From the NCBI GenBank assembly GCA_018242365.1, contig JAFECB010000017.1, positions 186,001 to 250,000 on the forward strand: a stretch of DNA of 64,000 nucleotides, read 5' to 3'. Below the pieces are notes generated by a model, which saw only the letters and a list, made by a program, of their open reading frames with translations, was not told the DNA's origin and did not search any database. Shown in pieces: positions 48,561 to 59,776 of this stretch (the stretch's first letter is position 1; every line of letters begins with the position of its first letter). Made by a program: the position numbers and the translations under genes. The DNA comes from Pseudomonadota bacterium. GTDB lineage: Bacteria; Pseudomonadota; Gammaproteobacteria; Xanthomonadales; Xanthomonadaceae.

Positions 48561-49327
48561 AGCCGCACCTGTATGCCGTGTTCGCGCAGCGTGCGCTTGA
48601 GTTCGGGAATGGCCAGCGCGCCGGAATGGAATACGCTGGCTGCCAGCGCGCCGTCCACGTCGGCGTGCAGGAACGCATCGGCAAAGTGCTGCGGCGTGCC
48701 CGCGCCACCAGAGGCCACCAGCGGCACCGCACAGACCGCACGCACCGCGCGCAGCTGTTCGATGTCATAACCGGCACGCGCGCCGTCGCTTCCCATGCAG
48801 TTGAGCACGATCTCGCCTGCGCCCAGCCGCTGCGCCTCGACCACCCAGTCGAGCGTGCGAATGCGTGGTGCACGCATCACATCGGGATTGCCGGCATGCG
48901 TGCGCACGCGCCAGTGACCATCGTCTTCCCGCACGGAGTCGATACCCACTACGACACATTGCACACCAAACGCCTCGGCCAATTCTGCAACCAATGGCGG
49001 ACGCTCCAACGCTGGCGTATTGATCGAGATTTTGTCCGCACCGGCACGCAGCACAGCCCGCGCATCATCCACACTGCGGATGCCACCTGCGACACAGAAA
49101 GGGATATCGATCACGCGCGCCACGTGCTCCACCCAGGTGCGATCCACGCTGCGCCCCTCAGGGCTGGCAGTGATGTCATAGAACACCAGCTCATCGGCAC
49201 CGGCATCGCGATAGCGCGTCGCCAGCTCGACGATCCCGCCCATATCGACGTGATCGCGAAAGCGCACCCCCTTGACCACCCGGCCGTCGCGCACGTCGAG
49301 GCAGGGAATGATGCGCCGGCTCAACAT
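48557..49327 (-). CDS. hisF: Imidazole glycerol phosphate synthase, cyclase subunit
   Basis: With HisH it makes imidazole glycerol phosphate and AICAR from PRFAR. From ATG 49327 it has 256 residues. The barrel motifs are [56 protein letters not shown] and [12 protein letters not shown]. The start overlaps the hisA stop by 7 nt; the longer open frame upstream overlaps hisA and is not coding. Confidence 0.97.
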
Positions 49328-50055
49328 GCCAGCGCCTCCGCCAACGCCAACCGCCCGTCCAGCAGGGCCTTGCCCAGCACCGCGCCCGCGCATCCGGCGG
49401 CACGCGCGGCGGTCACGTCGGCCACGTCGCGCACGCCGCCACTGGCCTGCAGCTGCACGCCGGGATACCCGGCGCACAGGTACCGATACAGATCCAGGTT
49501 GGGGCCGGTCAGCATGCCGTCGCGGGCGATATCGGTGCACAGCAGATGCCGCAAGTCCGCCTGAGCGTAGTGCTCCAGCAAGACATCGAGCGTGTGCTCT
49601 GCGGTCTGGGTCCAGCCATGCACCGGCAGCCGCCATTGGCCATCTGCATCCTGCCGGGTGTCCAGCGCGATCGTCAGCACCTCGCTGCCAAATTCCTCCA
49701 GCCAATCGATCACGGCGTCAGGCTCGCGTACCGCAAGCGAACCGACCACCACCCGCGTTGCACCCGCCTCCAGCAGCGCCCGTACATCGGCACGGATGCG
49801 CACGCCGCCGCCGGTTTGCACCTGCAGGCCGGTGCTGGCCACGATCTTGGCCAGCAGCGGCAGCAAGGTGTATCCCCCGGCCTTGGCTGCATCCAGATCG
49901 ACCAGATGCAGCCATTTCGCGCCGGCCTCGGCATAGCACTGGGCGAAGGCCAGTGGGTCCTCGCCATAGCGGGTTTCGTCGGCGTAATCGCCCTGCCGCA
50001 GGCGCACCACGCGGCCGCCGCGCACGTCGATGGCGGGATAGACGGTGAATGTCAT
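49321..50055 (-). CDS. hisA: Phosphoribosylformimino-5-aminoimidazole carboxamide ribotide isomerase
   Basis: Isomerises ProFAR to PRFAR. The 244-residue barrel has [60 protein letters not shown] and [12 protein letters not shown]. It starts at ATG 50055, 10 nt after the hisH stop. Confidence 0.97.
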
Positions 50056-50065
50056 GGGTGCAGAC

Positions 50066-50668
50066 TCAGGTCGGATTCCACTGCAGGAAATTGGCCAGCA
50101 GGCGTGCGCCCACATCGGCAGAGCGCTCGGGATGGAATTGCGCGCCGGCCCGGTTGCCGCGTTGGACCACGGCGGCAAAGCGCTCGCCATGCGTGCAAGA
50201 GGCAACGCAATCCGCAGTGACCGGCGCGGCATAGCCGTGTACGAAATACGCCTGCGCCTGGGTGTCGATTCCTGCGAGCAACGGCGAGTCGCGCAATGGC
50301 TGCAAGGCATTCCAGCCCATATGTGGCACGCGCAAACCCGCCCTACCATCCAACTTGCGCACGCGTCCGGGCAATAGCCCCAGACAATCCACATCGCCTT
50401 CTTCGGAAGATTCGAACAGCAATTGCATGCCCAGGCAAATGCCCAGCAGGGGGACCGGCAGCGCGGGCAGCACCTCGGCAAACCCACGCTCACACAGCAG
50501 TGCCATCGCCGGTGCCGCGGCACCCACGCCGGGCAGGACAACGCGCCGTGCATCGCGCAGGCCATCGGCATCGCGCACCATGACCGGCGTCGCCCCCAGA
50601 CGCTCCAGCGCATAGCAGACCGAGCCGAAATTGGCCCCGCCGGCATCGACCACAGCCACGCGGCTCAT
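50066..50668 (-). CDS. hisH: Imidazole glycerol phosphate synthase, glutamine amidotransferase subunit
   Basis: Supplies ammonia to HisF from glutamine. From ATG 50668 it has 200 residues. The class I glutaminase motifs are present: VVLPGVGAA, the nucleophile cysteine in [13 protein letters not shown], and the His-Glu pair in [13 protein letters not shown]. The start overlaps the hisB stop by 4 nt. Confidence 0.96.
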
Positions 50669-51744
50669 AGCATGCCCTTCGTCGAGGGCAGCTCTGCACC
50701 TTCGCGGCGAATCGCCTGCCGCAGCGCACGCGCCAGCGCCTTGAAGCACGCTTCAACTTGGTGATGATCGTTGTCGCCACTGACCTTCAGATTGAGGTTC
50801 AGCCCCGCCGCATCACACAGCGAACGGAAGAAATGCGGCACCAGCTCCAACGGCAGATCGCCCACGCGTTCACGCGTAAACGCACCTTCAAACACGAAGT
50901 ACGGGCGCCCGGAAAAATCCAGCGCCGCTTGCGCCAAGCACTCGTCCATCGGCAGGGTGAAGCCATAGCGACCGATCCCGCGCTTGTCGCCCAGCGCCTC
51001 GCGCAGCGCCTGCCCCAGCGCCAACCCGGTGTCTTCCACCGTGTGGTGTTCATCGATCTGCAGATCGCCCTTGGCTTCGATCTCCAGCGCAAACCCGCCG
51101 TGCTTGCCGATCTGCTCCAGCATGTGATCGAAGAACGCAAGCCCGGTGCGGATCTTCGGCTCGGCGGACTTATCCAGATCCACCGCGATGCGAATTTGCG
51201 TTTCTTTGGTATTACGCTGCACGCAGGCCGTACGCGGCGCATCGGCTAGCGCATGGGCAATGTCCGCCCAATCGCAATCGCCTCCGAATTGTGCTGTGCG
51301 TAGCTGGAAGCTACGGATGCGCAGGTTATGAGCGAATTCGATATCGGTGGGGCGATCGCCCACCATCGCGCTGCGGCTCCAGTCAATGCTTCTGTCTTGC
51401 AGGTAGCCGGTAAGCATGCCGATCCCCGGCTTGCGGTTGGGGCTGTTGTCCGCCGGGAAGCTGGAGTCGATGAACTCATCACGGAAGACGATGCCCTGGC
51501 TTGCGAACACCTGCCGCATCAGCGCATGCGGGCCAGCGAAGCACGCTTGCGGAAAGGCCTGCGTGCCGAGTCCATCCTGATTGGATACGATCACGAACTG
51601 GTAGCCGGCATCGCGCAGCTTGAGCAGGGCCGGGATCACGCCGGCAACGAAGCGCAGCTTCTCGTAGGCATCGATCTGGAAGTCGTCCGGCTCCTCGATC
51701 AGGGTGCCGTCGCGATCGACGAACAGGATCGGCACCCCGCTCAT
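50665..51744 (-). CDS. hisB: Histidinol-phosphatase/imidazoleglycerol-phosphate dehydratase
   Basis: Bifunctional enzyme, 359 residues from ATG 51744. The N-terminal HAD phosphatase domain (about 1-165) has [13 protein letters not shown] and VSNQDGLGT. The C-terminal dehydratase domain (about 170-359) has [31 protein letters not shown] and [15 protein letters not shown]. It performs steps 7 and 9 of the pathway. Both ends overlap neighbouring his genes by 4 nt. Confidence 0.97.
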
Positions 51745-52832
51745 GCCGCGGCCTCCGCGCCCAGCGTGGCAAGGGCCGCCAATACGCGCCGGCATTCCTC
51801 ACTGCTGCCGATCGTGATCCGCAGAGCATCGCCAAGCTGCGGCAGTGCGCGCATGTCGCGCACCACCACCCCGGCGGTCAGCAGCGCGGCAAACGCGGCA
51901 TCCGCATCGAAAAAACGCACCAGCAGGAAGTTGCCGGATGCGGGATACACCCGTCGTACGCACGCAAGACTGCGCAGGCCATCGGCCAAGCGCCCGCGCA
52001 GGTCGGCCACCGCCGCCAGACGGCTGCGGGACAGGGCCAATACCGGCGGCGCGAGTGCCGCCAGCGTCGCCTCCACCACCGGCTGCGGCATCGGATACGG
52101 TGCCTGGCAGCGGCGCAGCGCCTCGATCAGCGGCGCGCCTGCGAGCACGCAGCCCACTCGCGCGGCCGCCAGTGCATGCGCCTTCGAGAGGGTGCGCAGC
52201 ACCGCGATGTTGTCGTATTCGGCCAACAGCATCGTGGCCGATGGCGCACCGGCATATTCGAGATAGGCTTCATCCACGACCACCAGACAGCGCCCACGCA
52301 GACGCGATGCCAGCGCAGCGATCTGCTCCAGCGCCAGCAGTTCGCCCGACGGATTGCCTGGCGTGCACAGGAACAGCAAGCTGGCACCCTGCGCGAGTGC
52401 AGCATCGCCCATCGCCGCCAGGTCGGCGCACAGGCCGGCCGGCCCGTCGCGCAGCGGCACTTGCAGCACGTGCGCGCCGTGCAAGCGTGCGCACACTGCA
52501 TACATGCCGAACACCGGCGGCGCGATCACGACCCTGCCCTGTCCTGGCATGCAGAACGCGCGCAGCAACAGATCGATGCCTTCATCACTGCCGCGTCCCA
52601 CCAATACCTGTGCCGTGGCAACCCCATACAACTCGGCCAGCCGCGCGCACAGCGGCTGCGGCTGCGGCTGCGGATAGCGGCGCAGTTGGCCGCTGGCATC
52701 GGCGGGATTGGCCCAGGCCGATTCGTTGGCATTGAGCCAGACCGATCCGGCCAGCGCTTCACTGCGGGCAGACTTGTAGCCTCCGAAACTGCGCAGGTCC
52801 TCGCGCAGCAATGCGTCGATCGTCATGCTCAT
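51741..52832 (-). CDS. hisC: Histidinol-phosphate aminotransferase (his operon copy)
   Basis: PLP enzyme for step 8, 363 residues from ATG 52832; ATG 52826 is a close alternative. Motifs: [57 protein letters not shown] and the PLP lysine in [17 protein letters not shown]. The start overlaps the hisD stop by 4 nt. It is distinct in sequence from the paralogue in the aro operon. Confidence 0.96.
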
Positions 52833-54127
52833 GCGGCTGCCTCCAGTCGCAATTCGACCGCCCGCGCATGCGCCTGCAGGCCTTCGGCATGCGCCAGCGT
52901 GGCGGCGCAGGGACCGATGTTCCGCAGGCCCTGCGGCGTAGCTAGTTGCACGCTGATCGATTTCTGGAAGCTCGCCACCGACAAGCCGCTCCATGCCCGC
53001 GCCGCACCACCGGTGGGGAGGACGTGGTTGCTGCCGCTGCAGTAATCCCCCAGCGCTTCTGGCGTCCAGTCCCCAAGGAAGACGCTGCCGGCGTTGTCGA
53101 TCGCAGGCAGCCAAGCCCGAGGCTCGCGCAGGCTCAGGATCAGATGCTCGGGCGCATAGGCATTGCTGACCGCGATGGCTTGCGCGATATCCACCACCCG
53201 CACCAAGCGTGAATGCGCCAGCGCGCGCACCGCGATCTCGGCCCGCGGTAGCTGCGGCAATTGCCGAGTGATTTCCGCCGCCACCGCATCCAGAAGCGCA
53301 TCGCTGTCGGTCAGAAGCAGCACCTGCGAATCCGGACCGTGCTCGGCCTGCGACAGCAGGTCGGCGGCGACGAAGGCCGGGTTCGCTCCGGCATCGGCGA
53401 TCACCAGCACCTCCGATGGCCCGGCCGGCATGTCAATCGCCAGCCCACCCGGCCGCTGCGTGGCTTGGCGCTTGGCCTCATCCACCCAGCCATTGCCGGG
53501 ACCGAACAATTTGTCGCAACGCGGGATGCTGGCCGTACCCACCGCCATCGCCGCGATCGCCTGCGCCCCGCCCAGCTTGAATACACGCGCACCCGGTGCC
53601 TGCTGCGCCGCCAACAGCACCATTGGATCAGCACTGCCGTCCGCGCGCGGCGGTGTGCATACAAGAATTTCCTTGCAGCCTGCCAAGCGCGCCGGCACGC
53701 ACAGCATCAGTGCGGTCGAAGGCAGCGGCGCACTGCCGGCCGGCACATACAGTCCAACGCGTTGAATGGGCCGCTGCACGCGCTCGCAGCGCACGCCAGA
53801 TGCCGTTTCCACCGCATACGGCACCGCCATGCCAGCGCGATGGAAGGCTTCGATGCGCGCGGCGGCCTCAAGGATCGCCGCCTGCACCGCCGGCGCAACC
53901 TGTGCGTTGGCCGCAGCGAACTCCTCCGGCATCACTTCAAAACCATCCAATGCCACACCATCGAAGCGCGCACTGTATTCACGCAGGGCGGCATCGCCGC
54001 GCGCTTCCACCTCGGCAAAAATCGCCTGCACCCCCGCACGCACCGATTCGGCTACCGCCTGCACCGGACGCTGCAGCAGCGTGCCACGCTCGATCTCGCT
54101 CAATGCATTCCAGTCGAAGCGATTCAT
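52829..54127 (-). CDS. hisD: Histidinol dehydrogenase
   Basis: Zinc enzyme that oxidises histidinol to histidine with two NAD+. From ATG 54127 it has 432 residues. Motifs: [78 protein letters not shown] and [14 protein letters not shown]. The start overlaps the hisG stop by 4 nt. Confidence 0.97.
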
Positions 54128-55038
54128 GCCAGCATCCGCTCCACCGGCAGCACCATCAGCCCGCGTGCACCGGCGCGTTTCAAGTCTTCCAGCCGCTGCC
54201 AGGTCATCGCACCGTGGCACAACGCCTGCAGCGCCAGAGTGTCGGCACCATCGACCGCGCACATGGTGGGCGGCTCGGCATCGGGCAACAATTGCAGCAG
54301 GCATTCCAGTGCATCCCGTGGCGCTTGAAACAGCAGCAGCTTGCTGTCACGAATGCGCAGCACACCGTCCATCCGCCGCAGCAGAAGCTCGGCCAGCTCG
54401 GCACGCACATCACCGAACGGCTGCGCCGGCCCAGCCAGCACCGCTTCGCTGTGCATCACGTCCTGCACCGCTTTCAGCTGGTTGGCGGCCAGTGTGGCGC
54501 CGCTGGAGACCAGATCGCAGATGGCATCGGCCTGCCCCAGCCGTGGTGCGATTTCCACCGAGCCGTTCAAGACCACGATATCGGCCTCGACCTGGTTCAT
54601 TCGCAGCCACGTGCGCAGTTGGTTCGGGTAGGTGGTCGCAATCCGCTTGCCCGCCAGCTGCTGCGGTCCGCGCCAGTCCCAACCTTCCGGTACCGCCAGC
54701 GCCAGCCGGCACCCGCCAAAGCCCAGTGCCCGCCACTCGCGAAATGTCGCCGGCCGGCCCGCCGCGCAGCGGCCATCGATTTCTTCATCCAAGACGTTGC
54801 GGCCGACGATACCTAGATCGCACACGCCGTCCGCAATCAGACCGGGAATGTCGTCATCGCGCACCAGCAGCAGATCCACCGGCAGGGACTCGCCGTAGCA
54901 GAACAACTTGTCGCGACTCTCGCGCCAGCTCAGCCCGGACGAGGACAGCAGGGCACGCGCCGGCTCGCTCAGCCGGCCATTTTTCTGGATGGCGATGCGC
55001 AGACGGTCGCGCGTCCCTGGATTGGTGGCCGGGCTCAT
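54124..55038 (-). CDS. hisG: ATP phosphoribosyltransferase
   Basis: First enzyme of histidine synthesis. From ATG 55038 it has 304 residues, the long form with a C-terminal regulatory domain, so no HisZ is needed and histidine feedback is expected. Motifs: [46 protein letters not shown] and [25 protein letters not shown]. The start overlaps the stop of the regulator gene by 4 nt. Confidence 0.97.
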
Positions 55039-55370
55039 GGCTTGCCCGCGGGAGGTTGTGAAGTCATCCCCATCCGGCCAGCCGCCACCCGGTAGCCACC
55101 CGCACCGCGCTCCAAACAGCGCGCGACACGGCCAATGGTGGTGACACTCACTTTGGTGCACTCGTGGATCTCGCGATACGGCTCACCCTTCAACAATTGC
55201 GGCACCACACGCCAGCGATCCGCCAATGCCTCCAATTCTGCCGGCGTGCACAGGTCTTCAAGAAAGGCTTTGACTTCCTCTGCACCTTTCAGCTTGGACA
55301 GCACATGTGCCAATGCACTGATGGCTACCGACGCGTCATAGGGCATCAGGGGTTCTGGGCGTTGTTTCAT
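55035..55370 (-). CDS. hisR: TrpR-like YerC/YecD-family regulator of the his operon
   Basis: A 111-residue protein with a TrpR/YerC fold: [30 protein letters not shown], then the helix-turn-helix [23 protein letters not shown] Gly/Pro-rich tail follows. It is the first gene of the his operon and overlaps hisG by 4 nt. As a TrpR relative it probably binds histidine or a pathway intermediate and represses the operon through the palindromes at 55399-55451. The symbol follows the regulator naming used for his-linked TrpR-type proteins; ligand is inferred. Confidence 0.85.
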
Positions 55371-55398
55371 GGCGGGCAGGTCGCAGGTTGATGGGCAT

Positions 55399-55451
55399 AA
55401 TGTGATTATAGGCTATCACATTAATGCATTAACGCGTTATTACATTAACGC
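55399..55451 (-). promoter_or_regulatory. his operon promoter with an array of palindromes (candidate HisR operators)
   Basis: On the minus strand the -10 box TATAAT is at 55405-55410, with a weak -35 TTAATG 16 nt upstream. Three dyads overlap it: AATGTGAT/ATCACATT (55399-55406 and 55415-55422), which brackets the -10 box; the perfect palindrome TTAATGCATTAA (55421-55432); and GCGTTA/TAACGC (55434-55439 and 55446-55451). The region is conspicuously AT-rich for this genome. No histidine-rich leader peptide is present, so repressor control rather than attenuation is likely. Confidence 0.75.
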
Positions 55452-55549
55452 AATCACGTGACCAACCCTATGACCCCGACCCACAGCCGACCACCCGCTA
55501 CTATCCGAACGTGAATGCAAAGATGCCTGGATGGACGACGGAGGGGTTC

Positions 55550-56368
55550 ATGTTGAACGTGCTGCGCTGGACTTCATGTCTCTGCATGTTGGCGCTTGCC
55601 GGATTCCAGCCGCAGGCACGGGCGCAAACCTCTCCGGATGGCACCGAGGTCCACGTTCTGGACACCTGGCCGGCAGGCGCCTCGGTGAGCCTGGGCCGAA
55701 ATCAGAATTTCTATCTGCATCTGTCCTACACCGCGCATCGGCCCACCCACCTATGGGTGCAACCGATGTATCGAGGAAAACAAGCCGATGCAGGAACAAG
55801 CGGTTCGCCCATCTATTCAGGCAAGGGTGAAGCGGTCGTCTGGTTTTTCCTGATGTCGCGTGATGCAAAAGTCGACGAAATACGCATCCAGACCGGCGAT
55901 GGCGGCCCCGGTGCACAACCCACCGTGCTGGTCTGGCAGGGGGATATCCGTCAAGGCGTGATGACGTCCGATGCTCCCAACCCGGCATGGTTGGATCGGA
56001 TGATGCCGGAGTTGGCAGGACGTGCTGCGCAACCAGTGGGGCAATCGCCGTCCATGCCGCGCAAATCATCACTGGCGAGCGTGCTCTTGGTCACCCTGTT
56101 CTGGCTGCCCAGCCTGCTGGTACCGCTTGCAGCGGCATGGTTCCTGCGTGGAAGCTGGCGACTTGCAATGCTGGTGCCCGTCGCCGGGATGCTGTTTGTC
56201 ACGCTCAGGTTTGCGATCGACGTCTATCGTGATGCGACATCACACAATCTATGGCCATTCGAACTGGCGATCTACACCTTCTTCGCATTTGGCTATGTCG
56301 CCTTGCTGATGGTGGCTTGGGGCATCGCGAAGGCACGCTCGAAACCTGCGCCACCACGCACACGCTGA
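55550..56368 (+). CDS. Hypothetical exported/membrane protein
   Basis: A 272-residue protein from ATG 55550, preceded by GGAGG; GTG 55511 and ATG 55523 are less likely. The signal peptide (LCMLALAGFQPQARAQ) is followed by a beta-rich domain of about 130 residues (VHVLDTWPAGASVSLGRNQ; THLWVQPMYRGKQ; VVWFFLMSRDAKVDEIRIQT). Three membrane helices end the protein (VTLFWLPSLLVPLAAAWFL; LAMLVPVAGMLFVTLRFAI; AIYTFFAFGYVALLMVAW). An extracytoplasmic domain tethered to the membrane is likely. I do not recognise the family. It is divergent from the his operon. Confidence 0.72.
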   Translation: MLNVLRWTSCLCMLALAGFQPQARAQTSPDGTEVHVLDTWPAGASVSLGRNQNFYLHLSYTAHRPTHLWVQPMYRGKQADAGTSGSPIYSGKGEAVVWFFLMSRDAKVDEIRIQTGDGGPGAQPTVLVWQGDIRQGVMTSDAPNPAWLDRMMPELAGRAAQPVGQSPSMPRKSSLASVLLVTLFWLPSLLVPLAAAWFLRGSWRLAMLVPVAGMLFVTLRFAIDVYRDATSHNLWPFELAIYTFFAFGYVALLMVAWGIAKARSKPAPPRTR

Positions 56369-56450
56369 CTCGCACGCACAGCGAACAGAACCAACCGAGC
56401 GCAGGTTGCCTGCGCGGTACGGACCGAAGCCGCCTGCGATGTGAGCATGT

Positions 56451-58349
56451 TCAGCCGATCCGACGCACCGCCGCCAGCAGGCTGCCGTCAGCCACCATCG
56501 CGACCGCCGCCGCCACTTCACCATCCAGCGCGCGGTCGCGCTCCAGATAGGGGATGCGGCTGCGGATCGCCGCGTGCGCGGCTGCCACCGCCCTGCCGGG
56601 ACGGAATTCGTCCGCCAGTGCCAATTGCTGGCGCAGCGCATCGACCTCGCCGAGAAAGCCCGCACGCTCGCCGGCAGCCGGCAGCGGCCCGCCAGTTACC
56701 TTGGCGGCGAACGCTTCCGCATCGGTTCGATCGGCCAGCGCGCGTGCGGCATTGATCATGTCGCGGCGCAGGTCCAGCGCCTGTGCGGCGGTGTACAGCT
56801 CCAGCCCCAGCACCTTGCCCAGGTCCTGCACCATCGCCAGTACGTGGCGCGCTTCGTTGGCGCCCATCGACACATGGTCTTCGGCATTGGCGCTGGTCGG
56901 CACCGAATAGACCGATGCAGGCATCGCGCGGCTGGCCAAATCGTTGACGATCGCCGCAGCGGTGTACTGCACGATCATGTGCCCCGATTCGGTGCCATCT
57001 TCATTGCCGATCAAGAACGCCGGCAGGCCATCATTGGTGGCCGGGTCGACCAGCTTGTTGAGGCGCCGCTCGCTGATCGAGGCCAGTACCGGAATGGCGG
57101 CCTTCACATAGCTCATCGCCAGCGCCAGCGGCATGCCGTGGAAGTGACCCGCGGAAATCACCTGCTCTTCCACGTGCTTGGCATCGGCCTTGTCGGGGAA
57201 CACGATGGGGTTGTCGGTCAGTGCATTGAGCTCGATATCGAGCACGCGCTTGGCCTGTTCCAGCGCATCGCGCACCGCGCCGTGCACCTGCGGGATGCAG
57301 CGCAGCGAATAGCTGTCCTGCGGCTGGTGTTTCTTGCCACCACGAAATGGCAGGAAGCGCTGGTAGAACTTTTCGCGACCATGGCGCTGGCTGAAGGGCA
57401 CCCAGTCCCAGCCGATGTCGAAGTCCAGCGCCTGTGCCGCCGGTGTGTCCCAACTCTCGGGCTGCCAACTGCGGAACTTCGGGACCAAGTGATAGGGAAT
57501 ATCGGACAGGGTCGAACCATCCAGCAGCCGACGCAGATTGGCCGCCACCTGCACCTGCCCGGGGTGTGGGCGCAGCGCGTGCACCTCGGGCGCGAACGCG
57601 CCCAGCCGGCCGGCGAAGGCATCGATCGTCATCGCCGCGGCAAGGTCTGCGGTGTCCAGCAAGTCTTCCAGTTGCTGCAGGGCCAACACGCCGGTGGCCA
57701 GCATCTGCGCAGTGCCGTTATTCAGTGCCAAGCCTTCTTTGTAGGACAGCTCAACCGGCTTGAGGCCTTTTTTCGCCAGCGCATCGGTGCCGGGCATACG
57801 CTGACCATCGACGAAGGCTTCGCCACCGCCGAGCAACACGATCGCCAGATGCGACAGTGGCGCCAGATCGCCGGAGGCACCCACCGAACCGAGCTGCGGC
57901 ACCACCGGCACGATGCCGGCGTTGAGCATCGCCGCCAAAGCTTGCAAGGTCTGGACGCGAATACCGGAATGACCGCGTAACAGGGTATTGATGCGGATGC
58001 ACTGCATCGCCCGTACCACATCCGGCGCAAACGGCTCGCCGACACAGACCGCGTGGGTGACGATCAGGTTGCGCTGCAATTCGATATGCGGCGACACCCC
58101 GGATTTGGCCGCACCCGGCAGGGTATCGCGCAGGCGATGCGCGCCCAACAGCTTGTCGGCATTGCTGCCAAAGCCGGTGGAGACGCCATAGATCGGCTCC
58201 TGCTTGTCCACCTGCGCGGCAAGAAACTCCGCCGCACGCGCCACGCGGGCCAGTGCAGCATCGTCCAGGCTGACGTGTGCACCACGCGCCACTGCCAGCA
58301 GCTGCGAACGCTGCAGCGATAGTCCATCCAGCTTCACGACATCAGACAT
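56451..58349 (-). CDS. HAL/PAL-family aromatic amino acid ammonia-lyase, extended histidine-ammonia-lyase type
   Basis: Removes ammonia from histidine or a related amino acid without cofactor. The MIO-forming Ala-Ser-Gly triad is at 158-160 (GSVGASGDLAPLSHL); the catalytic tyrosine is in YGVSTGFG (about 54-61). The selectivity segment LQRNLIVTHAVCVGEPF carries His99, the position typical of histidine rather than tyrosine enzymes. At 632 residues it is about 120 longer than HutH, mainly through an insertion near 290-345 (WQPESWDTPAAQALDFDIGW) before DSYSLRCIPQVHGA. No hutU, hutI or hutG is nearby. It overlaps the hisS stop by 1 nt, an unusual coupling. Confidence 0.87.
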   Translation of the reverse strand: MSDVVKLDGLSLQRSQLLAVARGAHVSLDDAALARVARAAEFLAAQVDKQEPIYGVSTGFGSNADKLLGAHRLRDTLPGAAKSGVSPHIELQRNLIVTHAVCVGEPFAPDVVRAMQCIRINTLLRGHSGIRVQTLQALAAMLNAGIVPVVPQLGSVGASGDLAPLSHLAIVLLGGGEAFVDGQRMPGTDALAKKGLKPVELSYKEGLALNNGTAQMLATGVLALQQLEDLLDTADLAAAMTIDAFAGRLGAFAPEVHALRPHPGQVQVAANLRRLLDGSTLSDIPYHLVPKFRSWQPESWDTPAAQALDFDIGWDWVPFSQRHGREKFYQRFLPFRGGKKHQPQDSYSLRCIPQVHGAVRDALEQAKRVLDIELNALTDNPIVFPDKADAKHVEEQVISAGHFHGMPLALAMSYVKAAIPVLASISERRLNKLVDPATNDGLPAFLIGNEDGTESGHMIVQYTAAAIVNDLASRAMPASVYSVPTSANAEDHVSMGANEARHVLAMVQDLGKVLGLELYTAAQALDLRRDMINAARALADRTDAEAFAAKVTGGPLPAAGERAGFLGEVDALRQQLALADEFRPGRAVAAAHAAIRSRIPYLERDRALDGEVAAAVAMVADGSLLAAVRRIG

Positions 58350-59776
58350 CAGGCGTTCCCCGCTGCGCTACGCAGCTGTTCGCGTTCCACCAAAAGCGCC
58401 GCGGCCAGCTCGGCCTCCGTCACTTCGAATTGTTCGCCCCGACGCAAGTCCTTCACCGTCACCACCTTGCGTGCGGCTTCGTCCTCACCGCGCATCACCA
58501 CGAAGCGAATTCCCGTCTTGTCGGCATACTGCAATTGCTTGGCCAGCTTGCGCGGCTCCAGTTGCGTCTCGACATTCAAACCCGCCGCCCGCAGCCGCTG
58601 CGACAGCGCCAGCGCGTGCTCTAGGCCGGCCTCATCCATCAGTGCGACCAACACATCCACCGAGCTATCAGCCGTTGCGACCAGCCCTGCATCCTTCAGC
58701 TGGAAGAACAGCCGGGTCAGGCCGATGGAAATGCCCACACCCGGCAGTTTCGATCTGGTGTAGTGGCCAGCGAGGTTCTCGTAGCGCCCGCCCGAGCAGA
58801 TCGAACCGATCTGCGGGTAGGCATTGAGGGTGGTCTCATAGACCACGCCGGTGTAGTAGTCGAGGCCGCGCGCAATGGAAAGATTCAGCGCATAGCGGGC
58901 TTCGTTCACGCCCAGTGCCTTGAGCTGATTCAAGATCGCACGCAGTTCATCGCGCCCTTCTTCCAGCAAGGCCGTGCCTGCACCCAGCGCGTCCAGCTTG
59001 GCCAGCGCATCGGCATGGCCAGTGGAGCGCACTTGCGAGAACGCCATCAGCTTGTCGATCACGTCAGGGGCGAGACCGAAGCCGTCGCCCGCCAAGGTCG
59101 CACGCACCGCATCCGCACCACGCTTGTCGAGCTTGTCCAGCTCACGCAACACCAGCATCTGTGCATCACCCTCGATGCCGAGGCCTTCGAAATAGCCGCG
59201 CAGCAGCTTGCGATGGTTGAGCTGGATGGTGAACTCGCCGATGGCCAGTCGCTCGAACACGGCCGCGATCACCGCCGGCACTTCGGCATCGAAACGCGGC
59301 GACAATGCATCCTTGCCGATCACGTCGATGTCGCACTGGTAGAACTCGCGGAACCGGCCGCGCTGGGCTCGCTCGCCGCGGTACACGCGCTGCATCTGAT
59401 AGCGGCGAAACGGGAACGCCAATTCGTGCTCGTGCTCGGCCACGTAGCGCGCCAGCGGCACGGTCAGATCGAAGCGCAGCGCCAATTCCGGCAACCCTTC
59501 GCCACTCTTTTCAAGCGCACCGGTAGACTGCAGGAAATACACCTGCCGCTCGGTCTCACCGCCCGACTTGGTCAGCAGTACATCGGTCAGCTCCATCACA
59601 GGCGTTTCCACCGGCAGGAACCCGAACTGCTCGAAGGCATGGCGAATGGTGTCCAGCATGCGCTGGAACGCGATCTGGTCGCGGGGCAACAGTTCCATCA
59701 CCCCAGGCGGGGTACGAGGCTTGATCAAGGGAACACTCCGACGCCGACCTGAAACCGGCAGTTTACCGGGCATCAT
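58349..59776 (-). CDS. hisS: Histidyl-tRNA synthetase
   Basis: Charges tRNA-His. The 475-residue class II synthetase has [19 protein letters not shown], the motif 2 region [32 protein letters not shown] (split here as [18 protein letters not shown] then REFYQCDID), the histidine-specific loop [12 protein letters not shown] and a late [13 protein letters not shown]-terminal anticodon-binding domain follows. The N-terminus has about 17 extra residues; a TTG start at about 59731 would remove them. The ammonia-lyase gene begins inside its stop codon. Confidence 0.95.

Follow-up and report, generated by a model that had tools for sequence, protein, structure and literature searches.

A predicted HisR operator on an 8-bp lattice upstream of the his operon in a Xanthomonadaceae bacterium

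The his operon of a Pseudomonadota bacterium (Gammaproteobacteria, Xanthomonadales, Xanthomonadaceae; assembly GCA_018242365.1) lies in a stretch of 64,000 nucleotides, here called the window, on contig JAFECB010000017.1 (positions 186,001 to 250,000). The operon is headed by hisR (55035-55370, minus strand), whose 111-amino acid product is HisR, a histidine regulator of the YerC/YecD type with the TrpR fold. Downstream on the same strand are hisG (54124-55038), which shares 4 bp with the end of hisR and matches TIGR00070 and TIGR03455 above cutoff, and the hisD, hisC, hisB, hisH and hisA frames (49321-54304), each of which matches its NCBIfam equivalog above cutoff. The operon thus reads hisR-hisGDCBHA. 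An original prediction made from the DNA letters placed three different dyads at 55399-55451, upstream of hisR, and proposed that they form an operator array for the TrpR-like protein encoded next to them.

Exact dyads with arms of at least 5 bp were enumerated between 55390 and 55465. Four main dyads and one minor dyad were found. The first main dyad (55398-55423, center 55410.5) has 9-bp arms, TAATGTGAT and ATCACATTA, separated by a spacer of 8 bp. The others occupy 55421-55432 (arms TTAATG/CATTAA, center 55426.5), 55430-55439 (arms TAACG/CGTTA, center 55434.5) and 55434-55451 (arms GCGTTA/TAACGC, spacer 6, center 55442.5). The minor dyad, with 5-bp arms, is at 55397-55409. The dyads were confirmed as real and beyond chance: the 53 bp originally reported contain three with arms of at least 6 bp, compared with a mean of 0.17 in shuffled sequence, and three such dyads were reached in only about 1/3000 shuffles. 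The predicted interval was correct to one base. The TTAATG/CATTAA-like motif ascribed to the arms holds only approximately in the dyad nearest hisR.

The centers of the four main dyads are 16, 8 and 8 bp apart, so the dyads are not independent of each other. Self-identity of the segment 55398-55461 is 0.54, 0.48, 0.65 and 0.50 at lags of 8, 16, 24 and 32, respectively, and at most 0.36 at all other lags from 2 to 31. The dyads are parts, or registers, of one pattern, a lattice of half-site-like units that spans 55398-55461 with an exact period of 8 bp. On the plus strand the lattice reads TAATGTGA TTATAGGC TATCACAT TAATGCAT TAACGCGT TATTACAT TAACGCAA TCACGTGA, with TA at 55398, 55414, 55422, 55430, 55438 and 55446. 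Tandem Repeats Finder calls a period of 8 at 55419-55452. The 8-bp spacing is a stronger fact than the number of dyads, and to count three different dyads was to undersell the order in the region. TrpR tandem sites lie 8 bp apart, and the dyad centers at 55410.5, 55426.5, 55434.5 and 55442.5 fall on an 8-bp grid, as is expected of a tandem operator of the TrpR type.

The protein encoded beside the lattice is a TrpR relative of the YerC/YecD type, as had been proposed. It matches Pfam Trp_repressor (1.1e-23; score 83.5, cutoff 27) and NCBIfam TIGR02531 (YerC/YecD) at 60.5 bits, above the cutoff of 42.2. TrpR proper was ruled out by a score of 37.4 bits against TIGR01321, which has a cutoff of 67.25. 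The AlphaFold2 model, made with a 28-sequence alignment, has a predicted local distance difference test score of 89.8 and a TrpR-type all-helical fold with a helix-turn-helix. Its best folds in PDB are the YerC-type structures 3kor, 3g1c and 3frw, with E. coli TrpR next. The match to 3kor_A has a TMq of 0.76, a root mean square deviation of 1.4 and 31% identity. A weaker match is 1trr, the crystal of a tandem TrpR-operator complex, and Foldseek gives a probability of 1.00 to both 1tro and 1trr. The helix-turn-helix recognition stretch of 11 residues is nearly invariant in 149 HisR proteins.

A weight matrix for the operator was trained on 88 sites with the window's own site excluded. The training set was 88 of the 89 other family loci, from which L098 was omitted as the weakest match to the seed. 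The matrix places a main predicted 26-bp HisR operator, O1, at 55422-55447 (score 45.3) and a second predicted 26-bp operator, O2, with the perfect 9-bp arms, at 55398-55423 (score 22.3). The centers of O1 and O2 are 24 bp apart and one TA is common to both. The five top scores in the window, at 55422, 55398, 55414, 55406 and 55430, are 45.3, 22.3, 12.7, 11.3 and 10.3, respectively, and the sixth-best is -6.2. The maximum in 60 simulated 64-kb sequences was 8.1, and a score of 22.3 was reached by 0/20000 shuffles of the 76-bp segment. The published 20-bp HisR motif falls on 55425-55444 within O1. Compared by eye with the proteobacterial motif TGTAnTArnnnnyTnTTACA (PMC9413887), O1 agrees at 13/14 specified positions and O2 at 11/14. 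The dyads fit an operator for the neighboring HisR, so the original guess was right in kind. Judged by its sequence, the region is a predicted operator for an already described repressor, lengthened into a tandem array.

HisR was found in 184/198 sampled family genomes (E-value at most 1e-6) and in 25/25 genomes of the genus. HisG is present in 105/105 loci and, by a simple test, lies downstream on the same strand in 78/80 named loci. A palindrome close to TAATGTATTAACGCGTTAATACATTA is found upstream of hisR in all 90 of the first loci, the window's own included, and in 89/89 other family loci the top-scoring site in the roughly 400 bp before hisR reaches at least 25. A larger set of 189 loci was reduced to 150 distinct upstream regions, and 146/150 score at least 22.3. 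Lack of the dyads upstream of related his operons had been named as grounds for abandoning the prediction; an equivalent site is present in these 146, with conservation limited to the central operator. Measured from the main site, secondary positions scoring at least 0 in the 150 loci occur only at offsets of -16, -8, 8, 16, 24 and 32 bp (2, 83, 61, 10, 3 and 2 cases, respectively). Because the offsets of 8 bp on either side owe something to self-similarity of the motif, TA outside the core is the cleaner test. Downstream of the core in the genus, TA occurs at 9/67 in-phase positions versus 9/486 out-of-phase positions (Fisher p 7e-5). A full second operator beyond the 8-bp offsets (22.3 at +24) occurs in the window alone among the 150 distinct loci. 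As far as these sequences tell, the core lattice is a general feature, and a tendency to long arrays is found in certain genomes.

Two members of the genus deviate in the recognition helix of HisR, G210 (L104) with V76T and G208 (L108) with I79T. Both also have atypical operators, with site scores of 38.7 and 30.3, respectively. In our own alignment V76 of HisR aligns with Ile79, a DNA-contact residue of TrpR named in PMC9413887. With two cases, the pairing of helix changes and atypical sites is a hint only. An apparent stop codon in hisR of G208 proved to be the ordinary gene end. Separately, two records labelled Serinicoccus and Ornithinimicrobium (L173 and L198; Actinobacteria) contain a proteobacterial-type HisR with HisG adjacent and a weaker yet recognizable operator, which may be due to transfer or to contamination.

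The O2 spacer contains a perfect TATAAT (55405-55410, minus strand), the candidate -10 of the his promoter. TATAAT is found near the operator in 2/150 loci; the window's position is unique and L135 has one elsewhere. TTGAC occurs 22-26 bp before the operator in 99/150 loci, mostly at 23 or 24, and at this distance the operator's first arm falls at the -10. In the remaining loci TTGAC abuts the operator (13/150), lies elsewhere (2) or is absent (36, including the window). TTGAC directly against the operator, for example in L024, L041, L046 and L072, is an alternative promoter layout. We infer that the promoter moved in the window's genome and that O2 followed.

The window's genome (2.63 Mb in 34 contigs) was searched for other sites with a 26-bp pattern allowing up to 3 mismatches. 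This pattern replaced a first one, CATTAAYGCRWTNACG with 2 mismatches, which was not specific enough, with 15 matches forward and 13 reverse versus 7 and 10 for controls. The 26-bp pattern gave 3 forward matches versus 0 for the reversed control, and one further site was found, on contig 31. This second HisR-type 8-bp array (C31:102067-102133 of genome G000, the same as L120:1477-1543) has matrix scores at 8-bp steps of 42.0, 20.4, 20.2, 19.1, 11.4 and 7.2. Its start coincides with the stop codon of a degP/degQ-like (trypsin/PDZ) protease gene. On its other flank is a small membrane-type gene that has no Pfam match and was found in 23/25 genomes of the genus. No site above -6 was detected in the 220 bp before the small gene in 22 other genus genomes; the array is therefore specific to the window's genome.

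Across 395 family genomes a 7-unit TA pattern with 1 mismatch matched in 14. By eye, 7/14 represent repeats that are simple or nearly exact (G022, G100, G175, G241, G264, G376 and G382), 3/14 appear unrelated (G086, G239 and G380) and 4/14 are of the HisR kind (G000, G199, G210 and G283). Controls go as high as 29 in individual genomes, which means that the TA pattern by itself is not evidence. G210 has three arrays, one at hisR and two elsewhere that are long and degenerate (L225:2492-2573 and L246:2956-3084). One of these two separates convergent genes for an amidase and a class II DAHP synthase, and the other precedes a pirin gene. G283, which belongs to another genus, has a hisR site and also a degenerate 8-bp array (L262:2348-2413, best matrix score 24.3) between MgsA-type ATPase and glycosyl hydrolase 108 genes. 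No tRNA genes were found at three loci with extra arrays. Tentatively, and with somewhat less than even confidence, HisR in some Thermomonas-like bacteria may line up as rows of dimers along degenerate 8-bp arrays whose length is tunable. These arrays would include some away from his, at the degP-like site, at the two sites in G210 and possibly in G283, as extra regulatory, roadblock or titration sites gained within species-level time.

The region upstream of hisR is probably the operator region of an autoregulated hisR-hisGDCBHA operon, whose promoter would be repressed by tandem histidine-charged HisR dimers on the 8-bp lattice. Histidine-charged dimers would bind O1 and O2. The arms of the two operators and the internal half-sites lie on the lattice, and because its period is 8 bp, dimers could sit in tandem on neighboring registers, like E. 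coli TrpR dimers on their operator. With ample histidine, tandem dimers would cover the promoter and block RNA polymerase. A single operator overlaps the predicted -10 in most relatives. In the window's genome the TTGAC -35 is gone, the putative -10 is in the O2 spacer and the array extends over it.

HisR is, from its context, close to certain as the binding partner. Like E. coli TrpR (1tro, 1trr), it is predicted to have the TrpR fold and to face overlapping half-sites that could take tandem dimers. Unlike E. coli TrpR, it falls below the TrpR equivalog cutoff, it would control his and not trp, its operator sequence is different and histidine is the expected ligand. A co-repressor role for histidine is suggested by analogy with an ortholog of the window's HisR, R. 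gnavus HisR, which binds its site in vitro only with histidine (PMC9413887). The site tested there was a single 20-bp site of the hisX operator, with the Firmicute consensus cacTTTAnnnnnnTAAAgtg. Tandem, cooperative binding is suggested by the spacing and by analogy with TrpR, whose dimers bind synthetic operators in tandem with a cooperativity that depends on sequence (PMC8745587). Histidine-dependent repression by HisR dimers in tandem, an arrangement reported for E. coli TrpR, is the likeliest mechanism.

Several observations weigh against tandem repression by HisR. Weak sites (14-17) were found in 4/150 loci, L158, L173, L197 and L198, whose records are labelled Thermoanaerobaculia, Serinicoccus, Acidobacteria and Ornithinimicrobium, respectively. 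Upstream of the core in the genus, TA occurs at 4/75 in-phase positions versus 10/525 out-of-phase positions, which is not significant (p 0.08). In other genera there is no excess of in-phase TA either downstream (1/82 versus 10/616) or upstream (2/249 versus 10/1743). Extended arrays are therefore not general in the family. O2, which is specific to the window's genome, might be a drifting sequence. A good -35 is lacking for the window's TATAAT, and a promoter scan of 54000-57000 gave no sigma-70 match, with 0.6 expected by chance. The extra arrays adjoin unrelated genes or the ends of genes, a placement left unexplained if such arrays are purely his operators.

An alternative is that only O1 is functional, with O2 and the outer half-sites arising as by-products of repeat slippage or motif self-similarity, and with no tandem binding. 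Conservation is limited to O1, most relatives have a single site and extended arrays are confined to few genomes. Self-similarity accounts in part for the 8-bp offsets, and the repeat called by Tandem Repeats Finder would suit slippage. However, the 9-bp arms of O2 are perfect while the center between them has changed, which would not result from slippage. The lattice units vary in sequence while the period and TA are constant, and the autocorrelation peaks at lag 24. A functional O1 alone is a serious but unlikely explanation.

O2 might instead be the site of another regulator, such as the CRP-like Clp, as its arms contain TGTGA and TCACA at 55401-55420. CRP-type sites have a spacer of 6 bp, whereas that in O2 is 10 bp. 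In addition, the O2 score is within reach of true HisR operators and O2 shares the 8-bp grid of O1, which makes another regulator very improbable. Least probable of all is a role for the palindromes in the transcript, as hairpins, an attenuator or a leader: the 90-nucleotide strand does fold into two hairpins (-22.5 kcal/mol, z -2.56) and gammaproteobacterial his operons are often attenuated (PMC9413887), but such hairpins are expected from any DNA palindrome, no match to any Rfam family, such as a his attenuator or T-box, was found in 54900-56400 at E-values up to 1, hisR is adjacent to the palindromes, and the operator of most relatives overlaps the predicted -10 and stops a few bases short of the start codon, so that there is no room for a leader peptide.

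A divergent frame of 285 amino acids (55511-56368) shares the intergenic region with hisR. Pfam gave no match for it, and no relative was found in the short flanks of the other 104 loci. Adjoining the his operon is a 632-amino acid histidine-ammonia-lyase-like protein (56451-58349) that matches PRK09367 above cutoff and the hutH model TIGR01225 below it. The models match in two stretches, as if the protein carried an insert. Also beside the his operon is a histidyl-tRNA synthetase (58349-59776).

The system itself is known. HisR has been described in Xanthomonadales as the product of the first his gene, and a proteobacterial HisR site was predicted immediately upstream of hisR (Ashniev et al. 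2022, PMC9413887). Together with the in vitro assay of one ortholog, this makes the statement that YerC/YecD proteins are poorly characterized only partly true. The passages of that paper on the proteobacterial regulon give single 20-bp sites; tandem arrangements, an 8-bp lattice and arrays distant from his genes are not mentioned in them. No literature on tandem or 8-bp-spaced HisR operators was found among titles and abstract openings in open-licence PMC. Three observations are new. Throughout the 150 loci, secondary sites before hisR are found at multiples of 8 bp from the main site and at no other distance. A full second operator over a perfect TATAAT occurs only in the window's genome, while the usual arrangement in relatives is one operator over a -10 spaced from TTGAC. 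The window's genome has a second 8-bp array next to a degP-like gene, and similar arrays away from his occur in two other genomes.

HisR is a DNA-binding alternative to attenuation and T-boxes in the control of histidine synthesis. The build of its proteobacterial operator was previously known, from the account in PMC9413887, as predicted 20-bp sites only. The 8-bp lattice provides a testable rule for the positions of dimers and the number bound, and the natural arrays, with roughly 3 to 10 or more units, are suited to measuring cooperativity against array length. If the proposal is true, tandem binding would extend to another branch of the TrpR family. If the arrays away from his are bound, the HisR regulon would be less local than described.
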